Assembly: GCA_012837335.1 (NCBI GenBank)
Contig: DURM01000055.1
Location: 1-64,000 of the forward strand
DNA: 64,000 nucleotides
Direction of reading: 5' to 3'
From: Bacillota bacterium
Lineage (GTDB): Bacteria > Bacillota > Limnochordia > Darwinibacteriales > DTU012
Of this stretch, positions 60,934 to 63,917 are shown piece after piece; the first letter of the stretch is position 1; the number at the start of each line of letters is the position of its first letter. A program made the translations under genes and the position numbers. Below the pieces are notes generated by a model. That model ran no database searches, was not told the origin of the DNA, and was given only the letters and a program-made list of their open reading frames with translations.

Positions 60934-62517
60934 TTATTCGAACTGTTGTTCTGTTTTCCTGCTCCAGTAGAGCCCTTTTCCATCAACTAGGGCTTCATAA
61001 GCGGCTTTGGTCCGCTGCAAATACCAACCACTGCGATCCAACATAAACTCCCGTCCGCAGATTGTTACCACCTCCCCGATTTCCGCTTGATCAAGGATCT
61101 CCTGTAGTTTTGTCAGGTATTTAACGGCACCAAAGGGGTGGGCGCTGCGGCCATCGGTAATAGCGTGGAGATAAACCCGCTCAACTTCCCATTCTTTTAA
61201 TACCGCCAAGAGCTTTACCGCTTCATCGGTGCTGCCGTGGGAGCTTCCCGGGGAGAGGAGAAAAAGCAGGTGCACCGCTTGATGCGATCCCAGCTGTTTG
61301 ATTGTCTGGTAGAACCTGCGGTTTTTCATCAGCTGTTGAGCATTCAGGTTTTGAGGAATGCGGACTTCATCCTGAACAACCACTCTCCCCGCTCCTAACG
61401 TTAGATGCCCTGTTTCGGAGTTACCGCTTGAGTGCGGTGCCAGGCCGACCTGGGCGCCTGAAGCGTGCAGAGCAGTGTGGGGATACTGAGCCAACAGTCG
61501 ATTTAGATGCGGTGTGCGCGCAGCACAGATGGGATTAATCTTCGCATCTTCTGTTCCGATACCCCATCCATCCAGAATGATGAGAATCACCCCGCGGGCG
61601 GAGCTCACATAGGGCTGAACCAATGGTTTTCCTGTCATCTGCTCAGGCTGCCTTAAACCCATAATCTGCAGCACTGTTGGAGCCACATCCGCAAGTGTAC
61701 CATCCGGTGCAAGGGACAGTGTTCCAGGGACAGTGGGATCAACCAGGATAAACGGCACCATCGCCCGGGTGTGCCCCACGCTGGCTGATCCATCGGAGTT
61801 ATACGCCTGCTCTAAAAGCCCATGGTCAGCGGTGATCAGCAGACAATAGCTGAGCTGCTCCCCATGCGCTGCAATCTGTCCCAAAACTCGATCAACTGCT
61901 TCCGCGCAGCGAACATGGAGCTGAAAAGCAGGAAGATGACCGTAAAGATCGCCAGCCGCAAAGTTGACAAGGGCAAAATCAAAGTCAGCAGCATTCATCC
62001 TGCTGATCAGCATTTTGCCAACCTCGTCTGTGCTGTGCTCGACAAACTTCATTCGTTCAAGCGCAGTGCTCATAATTTTGATCCGCTCTTCTCCGGGAAA
62101 TGATGCTTCCCTGCGCCCATTAAAGAAATAAGTTACATGGGGAAATTTCTCGGACTCAGCAATCCGCAGCTGTTTTAAACTATGTTGAGCCAGCACTTCC
62201 CCGAGCGTTTTCTCCGGCCTGGTGGTAGAAAACAGCGGCGGGTAAGCAGCAAATTTACTGTGATATTCCACCATCGGGAAAAAGGCTAAATTCGGCAGAT
62301 ATGTTCTTTCAAAATGGGGGAAATTCGGATCCACAAAAGCTTCGGTCAGCTGAATTTCCCGCTCACCGCGGCGGCAGGCAAAGACCAAAACATCGCCATC
62401 ACCCACTCGCCCAACCACTCTGCCGTCATGGCTGCGCTTAACTAAAGGCGGCAGAGAATAATCGCTGATTCCCTGATCATAGTGTTTCCGGATCAGATCA
62501 AAAAGTGAATCCAACAT
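60934..62517 (-). CDS. gpmI: Circularly permuted 2,3-bisphosphoglycerate-independent phosphoglycerate mutase
   Basis: Dimanganese glycolytic enzyme converting 3-PG to 2-PG, but with its halves swapped. Residues 1-300 match the normally C-terminal half: DGDVLVFACRRGERE, LKQLRIAESEKFPHVTYFFNG, NFAAGD190LYGH194, ITAD231H232G, GH249T, ADVAPTVLQIMGL and MTGKPLV. After a short linker, residues 309-515 match the normal N-terminal half: LILDGWG (D316), GNS367ETGH, H427, DGRS, CGR489-LDR495 and AYEALVDGKG. Every metal ligand (Asp, Ser, two His pairs) and the K124, R49/R53, R489 and R495 binding residues are in place. Only GRD reads GRS. Total length (527) equals a normal enzyme. GAGGTG precedes the ATG. 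One uninterrupted frame, so not a frameshift. Confidence 0.9.
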   Translation of the reverse strand: MLDSLFDLIRKHYDQGISDYSLPPLVKRSHDGRVVGRVGDGDVLVFACRRGEREIQLTEAFVDPNFPHFERTYLPNLAFFPMVEYHSKFAAYPPLFSTTRPEKTLGEVLAQHSLKQLRIAESEKFPHVTYFFNGRREASFPGEERIKIMSTALERMKFVEHSTDEVGKMLISRMNAADFDFALVNFAAGDLYGHLPAFQLHVRCAEAVDRVLGQIAAHGEQLSYCLLITADHGLLEQAYNSDGSASVGHTRAMVPFILVDPTVPGTLSLAPDGTLADVAPTVLQIMGLRQPEQMTGKPLVQPYVSSARGVILIILDGWGIGTEDAKINPICAARTPHLNRLLAQYPHTALHASGAQVGLAPHSSGNSETGHLTLGAGRVVVQDEVRIPQNLNAQQLMKNRRFYQTIKQLGSHQAVHLLFLLSPGSSHGSTDEAVKLLAVLKEWEVERVYLHAITDGRSAHPFGAVKYLTKLQEILDQAEIGEVVTICGREFMLDRSGWYLQRTKAAYEALVDGKGLYWSRKTEQQFE

Positions 62518-62570
62518 GTGATCACCTCACAATTCATATCTACCTTTATGCCTGCCTAAAAATAGATATG

Positions 62571-62596
62571 AAAAAACCCCAGTCAGCGACTGGGGT
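62571..62596 (-). terminator. Intrinsic terminator of cspA
   Basis: On the minus strand a 9-bp stem (62596-62588 with 62584-62576, ACCCCAGTC / GACTGGGGT) with a 3-base loop is followed by six T. It lies 14 bases after the cspA stop codon. Confidence 0.9.
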
Positions 62597-62609
62597 TAAT
62601 CTCTATTGA

Positions 62610-62810
62610 CTAGAGGCGAACAACATTAGCGGCTTGAGGTCCGCGGTTGCCCTGAACGATTTCGAATTCTACTTTTTGACCTTCTTCTAAAGTGCGGAAT
62701 CCGTCACCTTGAATAGCAGTGAAGTGTACGAATACGTCGTCTCCGTTGTCTTGCTCGATAAAACCGTAACCTTTTTCTGCGTTAAACCATTTAACTGTTC
62801 CTTGTACCAT
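62610..62810 (-). CDS. cspA: Cold shock protein (CspA family)
   Basis: A 66-residue single cold-shock domain binding single-stranded RNA and DNA. RNP1 is KGYGFIE and RNP2 is DVFVHFTAI; the C-terminus [10 protein letters not shown] is typical. ATG at 62810 gives the standard length; AAGGAGG lies 12 bases upstream, slightly far. An 11-codon extension upstream is not conserved in the family. A leader of about 110 nucleotides precedes it, as in thermoregulated csp genes. Confidence 0.96.
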
Positions 62811-62975: not shown

Positions 62976-63851
62976 TTATTTTTCCGGCAGATCGCGATGT
63001 CTAACTTGATTATGGAAGCCATCCAGGGTAAGTCTGCGCCCCAACTCACGGCTGATAGCCACCGAACGGTGCTGTCCTCCAGTGCAGCCAATTCCAATCG
63101 TTAAGCGGGCTTTTCCTTCCTTGCTGTACGCCGGGAGCAGTTCAACGATCAAATCATAGAATTTATCGATGAAAGCCTGGGTTTGCGGCCAATCGAGAAC
63201 ATAGTCAGCAACTTCCGGATCTTCTCCAGTAAGCTGCTTCAACTCATCGATGTAGAACGGATTAGGCAGGAATCTGACGTCAAAAATGATATCGGCGTCA
63301 TTAGGCACACCATATTTAAATCCAAATGACAGTAAATCAATCTGCATCAAAACATCGGTTCCATCGCTCCCTAACAGCGCGCTGTTGAGAAGCGCCTTCA
63401 GCTCAGCAGGCTTAATCGCCGAGGTATCTATGATCAAGTGAGCCAACTGGCGAACATCAGCCAACAGTTTTCGCTCATGAGCGATGCTGTCATAGATGCT
63501 GCCCTGATCCGCCAGGGGATGCCGCCTTCTGGTTTCACTGAAGCGGCGGACCAAGATATCGTTTTCACACTCAAGAAATACTACTTTATAGGATACTAGA
63601 CTTTCCTCCAGCCACGTAATCACGCTGGTCAGCTGAGCAAAATGTCCTTTACCCCGCACGTCCATCGCCACAGCCACCGGCCGGGTTTCTTCTGTACTTT
63701 GATGAATCGCAATCAATTGAGGCAGAAGGGATGGAGGCAGGTTGTCAATGCAGAAAAAATCCAAGTCTTCCAACGCTTTCATTGCCTGGGTCTTACCTGC
63801 GCCTGACAAGCCAGTTACAATAACTATTTTGATTTTTTCACTGATGGTCAT
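62976..63851 (-). CDS. rapZ: RNase adapter/nucleotide-binding protein RapZ (YvcJ)
   Basis: P-loop GTP/ATP-binding protein; in enterobacteria it directs RNase E to a glucosamine-phosphate synthase regulatory RNA, in Bacillus YvcJ influences competence. The 291-residue protein shows TGLSGAGKTQAMKALEDLDFFCIDNLPP at the N-terminus, MDVRGKGHF, FLECENDILVRRFSETRRRHPL, and the C-terminal GIGCTGGQHRSVAISRELGRRL. ATG at 63851 follows AAAGGGG. It normally sits with yvcK and whiA; here cspA follows. Confidence 0.96.
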   Translation of the reverse strand: MTISEKIKIVIVTGLSGAGKTQAMKALEDLDFFCIDNLPPSLLPQLIAIHQSTEETRPVAVAMDVRGKGHFAQLTSVITWLEESLVSYKVVFLECENDILVRRFSETRRRHPLADQGSIYDSIAHERKLLADVRQLAHLIIDTSAIKPAELKALLNSALLGSDGTDVLMQIDLLSFGFKYGVPNDADIIFDVRFLPNPFYIDELKQLTGEDPEVADYVLDWPQTQAFIDKFYDLIVELLPAYSKEGKARLTIGIGCTGGQHRSVAISRELGRRLTLDGFHNQVRHRDLPEK

Positions 63852-63917
63852 GGCTTTCACCCCTTTCCAGGTTCATAGTGTAATTCTAGTTTACAGCATC
63901 GCATCCTTTTTTTAAAC

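Follow-up and report, generated by a model that had tools for sequence, protein, structure and literature searches.

On the minus strand of the window, the whole 64,000-nucleotide stretch that was analysed, an open reading frame at 60934-62517 begins with ATG and encodes a protein of 527 amino acids, designated P0001, which resembles iPGM (GpmI) with its parts in permuted order; the plus strand over the same positions is interrupted by stops throughout. The permuted gene is preceded by rapZ (62976-63860), and between the two lies a cold-shock gene (62610-62810, minus strand, 66 aa) with a strong terminator, which is missing from the ORF lists because it is short. Since the cold-shock gene ends in a terminator, the permuted gene probably has a transcript of its own. 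In congeners of the window genome, a phosphohexomutase gene directly follows the permuted gene. The features of the locus are collected in Table 1.

Table 1. Coordinates of the permuted gene, its parts and its upstream signals (window positions; residue numbers are those of P0001 unless normal iPGM is named)
Feature	Position	Strand	Remarks or basis
CDS of P0001	60934..62517	-	stop included; 527 aa; purifying dN/dS among homologous genes
Residues 1-301, GpmI C-terminal part (about 215-511): second part of transferase domain and most of phosphatase domain; key residues D190, H194, D231, H232, H249, R50, R53, K124	61615..62517	-	profile and structure alignment
Residues 302-306, short linker between natural C and N ends	61600..61614	-	junction sequence
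Residues 307-518, GpmI N-terminal part (about 5-215); key residues metal ligand D316, phospho-acceptor S367, H427, R457, R489, R495	60964..61599	-	profile and structure alignment
Ser367 codon, equivalent of catalytic Ser62 (GNSETGH)	61417..61419	-	alignment
Ser458 codon, at the position of Asp154 in normal iPGM	61144..61146	-	alignment
Arg49 codon (normal iPGM: Phe260), new invariant Arg beside substrate-binding Arg261	62371..62373	-	
Arg135 codon (normal iPGM: Gly347), new invariant Arg	62113..62115	-	alignment
Likely ribosome-binding site GAGGTGAT, 3 nt ahead of ATG	62521..62528	-	read from sequence
Intrinsic terminator of upstream cold-shock gene	62575..62597	-	

A natural circular permutant of iPGM

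When P0001 was compared with Pfam, the Metalloenzyme (PF01676) and iPGM_N (PF06415) domains were each split into two stretches, and TIGR01307 matched in two swapped pieces with 413 bits, against a curated cut-off of 330.65; the first piece paired residues 7-300 with model positions 215-504, and a second stretch followed. Because TIGR01307 is passed in two pieces, annotation pipelines would label the permuted gene an ordinary phosphoglycerate mutase. Alignment with the B. stearothermophilus iPGM (1EJJ) paired residues 7-300 with 218-509, and 307-517 with 3-212. A profile made from 50 ordinary GpmI proteins also matched the natural-order protein in two pieces, 220-511 and then 5-215 (241 and 189 bits), whereas exchanging the halves in silico yielded one full-length match of 436 bits, which excludes chance. 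Fourteen other full-length homologues showed the same profile behaviour, with the cut always at model position 212-221, and the GpmI segment order (N-terminal part of the phosphatase domain, inserted transferase domain, C-terminal part of the phosphatase domain) is reversed in all 15. The swapped match is broken only in the G148 homologue (L116:7083-8828), in which roughly 60 extra residues are inserted into the part that belongs to the phosphatase domain.

The gene encodes a naturally occurring circular permutation of the iPGM fold, in which the chain runs from the loop at about 215 to the natural C-terminus, through a linker of roughly 5 residues to the natural N-terminus, and on to about 215 again. 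Both halves are full length and about 35-40% identical to GpmI/iPGM (TIGR01307; PF01676 and PF06415; 1EJJ, 1O98), from which P0001 differs in the reversal of the halves and in its new ends at about 215. The earlier note had read this arrangement from the letters, with a C-terminal GpmI half continuing in frame into an N-terminal half, the natural ends joined through a short linker and the new ends inside the transferase domain, and the two-piece profile match, the 1EJJ alignment and the swap test bear it out. The motifs on which it drew (K124, D190xxxH194, D231-H232, H249 and MTGKPLV at 294-300, then the LDGWGIG stretch, GNS367ETGH, H427, DGRS at 455-458, R489 and R495) all lie where it placed them. 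It knew of no described naturally permuted iPGM, and none was found in the literature searched. Natural circular permutation is unexpected in a large two-domain glycolytic enzyme, here with the transferase domain split and the composite active site retained.

Structure prediction, a search for homologues with the same permutation and a check for a normal gpmI in the rest of the genome had been proposed in the earlier note. An AlphaFold2 model of P0001, built with a 14-row family alignment, had a pLDDT of 88 and a pTM of 0.86, and the joined natural ends were modelled at about 90 or better. Foldseek returned 22 matches with E <0.001, all of them iPGM structures. The best, 1O99, superposed with an rmsd of 2.2 Å over 275 columns, which compares one half only, since the aligner is sequential; for a permuted protein, a TM of about 0.5 is the ceiling that such an aligner can reach. 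Fusion of two loci by misassembly or misannotation could also produce a reversed order, and metagenome assemblies can be chimeric, but no specific support for this was found, and the homologues are single ORFs with the same cut site in independent genomes. As separately assembled genomes from several families and classes have an identical junction, and have it in different neighbourhoods, misassembly was rejected, and we regard the chance of an artefact as negligible.

Distribution, ancestry and resident gpmI genes

The permuted gene was found in 17 genomes, in two of which (G026 and G337) it is interrupted by contig ends. All five genomes of the window genus carry it as one ORF, with 59-64% identity to P0001. 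Within the same order it is also present in G011, G014 and G021, and in G026, where it is divided between two contig ends. The remaining eight genomes (G107, G120, G148, G193, G291, G314, G337 and G444) belong to other classes of the phylum sample, and in G337 the gene runs off the contig end. In a class survey of 73 genomes, the permuted gene was confined to members of the window's order, and in the phylum sample it occurred in 12 of 399 genomes; searches of further classes gave nothing new. It is absent from G272, G158 and G248, near-complete congeners of G120, G193 and G444.

With halves swapped in silico, the 15 full-length permuted proteins formed one clade (SH-aLRT 100) on a stem of 1.12 substitutions per site, and this clade fell outside the resident gpmI lineages. 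Pairwise dN/dS was about 0.11-0.18 in the two comparisons with unsaturated dS. The permuted genes thus make up a single subfamily, old and conserved, on which selection is purifying. Descent from the resident gpmI was rejected, as the permuted clade does not branch from within the sampled normal enzymes. A mobile origin was likewise rejected: plasmid and phage matches were ordinary gpmI matched in two pieces, none above 60% identity, and matches on viral contigs were 34-37% identical and, where full ORFs were read, in normal order. That most of the genomes have a second, ordinary gpmI might suggest that the permuted protein has lost catalysis and serves in binding or regulation, but the complete metal site and nucleophile are invariant among proteins with 41-64% identity to P0001 and dN/dS is low, and we consider a dead protein very improbable; on the same residue conservation and low dN/dS, a relic was rejected.

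In the window genome, an ordinary gpmI lies on contig C8 within a glycolytic operon, cggR-gap-pgk-tpi-gpmI-eno (profile match, with gene calls from sequence). A full-length ordinary gpmI accompanies the permuted gene in 14 of the 17 genomes, and none was found in the other three, G120, G193 and G444. As their congeners G272, G158 and G248 lack the permuted gene, this genus presumably has another phosphoglycerate mutase. The resident canonical gpmI (L056:6968-8509) has GDSNVGH around the catalytic Ser, where GNSEVGH is usual. In G011, a third iPGM gene of normal order (L067:12545-14119), highly divergent, was seen in addition to the ordinary gpmI and the permuted gene.

The active site

The active sites of 15 permuted and 50 normal enzymes were compared in the numbering of Fervidibacillus GpmI, in which the residues of 1EJJ have identical numbers. 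His123, Arg153, Arg185, Arg191, Arg261, Arg264 and Lys336, which we take to be the substrate ligands of iPGM, are conserved in all 15 permuted proteins. The seven metal positions are retained as well, as the earlier note had held: D12, S62, D403, H407, D444, H445 and H462 correspond to D316, S367, D190, H194, D231, H232 and H249 of P0001, and the set matches the list given for C. elegans iPGM (PMC5382265). The likeness to GpmI covers the seven metal ligands, the phospho-acceptor Ser, nearly all substrate-binding basic residues and the predicted fold. P0001 likely adopts the iPGM fold and, using two metal ions, would move a substrate phosphoryl group onto Ser367, a route suggested by the established chemistry of iPGM and of the alkaline-phosphatase superfamily.

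Asp154, presumably the residue of iPGM that contacts the substrate hydroxyl and the proposed catalytic base, is present in 50 of 50 normal enzymes, but all 15 permuted proteins have Ser in its place (S458). Further fixed differences include F260 to R49, N259 to C48, G347 to R135, V122 to S426, N68 to T373, W195 to Y499, E231 to Y20 and N447 to L234, and the loop at 121-124 is remodelled from GVHS to SSHG. The permuted family and the normal enzymes are each fixed for a different residue at 15 or more positions, whereas the earlier note had seen the change of GRD to GRS as the only notable one. A substrate with more negative charge would be in keeping with the loss of one acid and the gain of two Arg, at 260 and 347, in or next to the substrate site.

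Because the segment order is reversed and Asp154 is replaced, we class the proteins as a sister subfamily of iPGM with permuted order and not as phosphoglycerate mutase. A divergent, permuted isozyme still able to convert 3PG and 2PG into each other, some other group having taken over from Asp154, would fit the retention of the metal ligands, Ser62 and the seven basic residues, the TIGR01307 score above cut-off and the lack of another GpmI in G120, G193 and G444. Such an isozyme seems rather unlikely to us, as Asp154 is lost throughout the family and kept in every normal enzyme, new Arg residues are invariant, an ordinary gpmI is present in 14 of 17 genomes, and the operon described below joins the permuted gene, in relatives, to a cyclic 2,3-diphosphoglycerate (cDPG) synthetase homologue and an importer, not to genes of glycolysis. 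It is moderately likely that the permuted protein is no longer a glycolytic mutase. The picture of a simply rearranged phosphoglycerate mutase is not supported by these comparisons: the loss of Asp154, the two new Arg, the SSHG loop, the separate deep clade and gene neighbours other than those of GpmI together argue that the substrate or the reaction has changed.

Linkage to cDPG synthetase and proposed function

In the f51, f64 and f76 genomes, the permuted gene closes an operon of the order GntR regulator, cDPG synthetase homologue (cDPGS), solute-binding protein, permease and ATPase. The operon of G107, G120, G148, G193 and G314 consists of a GntR-UTRA regulator (not seen in the stretch from G148), a 446-aa protein, a solute-binding protein, a fused permease and an ATPase; the same order holds within the stretches covered in G444 and G337, and across a contig break in G026. 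The 446-aa protein matched the cDPG synthetase structures PDB 9sxb and 8ork with an E of 1e-127 over 432 residues (cDPGS loci L114:2916-4253, L110:1067-2398, L111:2864-4207, L112:3143-4522, L066:3352-4692 and L149:325-1656). The synthetase gene is linked to the permuted gene in G026, G107, G120, G148, G193, G314, G337 and G444, and is absent from the other 9 of the 17 permuted-gene genomes, namely the whole window genus, G011, G014, G021 and G291. In the phylum sample, 8 of 399 genomes carry cDPGS and 7 of these 8 have the permuted gene, whose frequency in the whole sample is 12 of 399 (Fisher p 2e-11, uncorrected for relatedness); the eighth genome is 72% complete, and its contig ends inside the operon, ahead of the place of the permuted gene.

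No 2-phosphoglycerate kinase (2PGK; we take NF003259/PRK04220 to be its model) was found in the cDPGS genomes, where the lone weak match lay in a cytidylate-kinase-like ORF; in a control search, 1 of 14 named genomes scored above cut-off. Synthesis of cDPG by the methanogen 2PGK route is disfavoured in the operon-bearing genomes because 2PGK is missing. The cDPGS homologue in the operon of the bacterial relatives recalls methanogen cDPG metabolism, which relies on 2PGK and cDPGS (PMC10690619, PMC1224877), whereas the bacteria lack 2PGK, their operon has an importer and a GntR regulator, and the window genus has no cDPGS. So far, cDPG has been reported only from hyperthermophilic methanogens (PMC10690619, PMC1224877). 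The cDPGS of M. fervidus works in both directions and is able to produce ATP; a hydrolytic return of cDPG to 3PG has also been proposed (PMC1224877).

The operon transporter, of the ABC type, resembles phosphonate and organophosphate importers. As in AfuABC/P5PA organophosphate and PhnSTUV (2-aminoethylphosphonate) importers, a solute-binding protein, a fused permease and an ATPase are encoded together, here adjoining the permuted gene in relatives, but the transporter scores under the curated cut-offs of the named transporters, and well below those of the 2-aminoethylphosphonate families. Solved relatives of the solute-binding protein bind hexose phosphates (PMC4546632) or pyridoxal phosphate (PMC8427247).

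Taken as a whole, the data seem best explained by a new permuted iPGM subfamily of metal-dependent phosphatases or phosphotransferases for 2,3-bisphosphoglycerate-type substrates, a reading to which we give an even chance. With Ser at 154 and two extra Arg, the enzyme would act on a more phosphorylated glycerate, such as 2,3-bisphosphoglycerate (2,3-BPG), and would remove or transfer one phosphate to leave 2- or 3-phosphoglycerate. In relatives with the operon, the importer would bring in cDPG, cDPG synthetase running in reverse would convert cDPG, ADP and Pi to 2,3-DPG and ATP, and the permuted enzyme would then supply phosphoglycerate to lower glycolysis, completing a route of cDPG uptake and breakdown. 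That the permuted iPGM is a 2,3-bisphosphoglycerate (or cDPG) phosphohydrolase, and the last step of an undescribed bacterial pathway of cDPG uptake and burning that gains ATP through reversed cDPG synthetase, is offered tentatively, as a possible rather than a probable account. The choice of 2,3-BPG or a similar compound follows the pocket changes and the linkage in relatives, and to give all members of the subfamily a single substrate is to extrapolate, least securely for the window genus, which has no cDPGS and whose neighbouring genes (RapZ, and phosphohexomutase in congeners) give no pointer to cDPG. There, the substrate may be 2,3-BPG or a similar bisphosphate of other source. The operon with the bacterial cDPG synthetase homologue suggests bacterial metabolism of cDPG, which would be a cross-feeding link, and, if the burning pathway holds, its fuel would be a phosphate- and energy-rich solute that methanogens accumulate. 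A second enzyme that is permuted, altered in the same manner throughout and, in relatives, close to cDPG genes may be a new enzyme with another role.

The variety of neighbourhoods would also suit a phosphatase or phosphomutase whose substrate differs from lineage to lineage and is some other small organophosphate, be it a phosphonate, a sugar phosphate or the product of a glycerophosphodiester. The RapZ and phosphohexomutase context in f1 and f4, the phosphonate-type importer in f51, f64, f76 and G026, and, near the permuted gene of G014 and G021, a dipeptide-type importer with glycerophosphodiesterase and sulfatase-type hydrolases are in line with this idea, as is an enolase-like protein of G014 without typical catalytic motifs. 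However, none of the glycerate-binding basic residues is lost, and the altered pocket does not vary from one of these contexts to the next, which favours one substrate class near phosphoglycerate and makes a lineage-dependent substrate rather unlikely. In G291, a similar transporter lies on the opposite strand, and cDPGS is absent. The enolase-like gene of G014 (L063:3560-4840) adjoins the permuted gene and has lost GDEGGF, SHRSGET and NGGAH relative to the canonical enolase of G000 while keeping the IED, GDD and K-V-x-Q motifs, which suggests that a second enzyme of glycolysis has changed its function.
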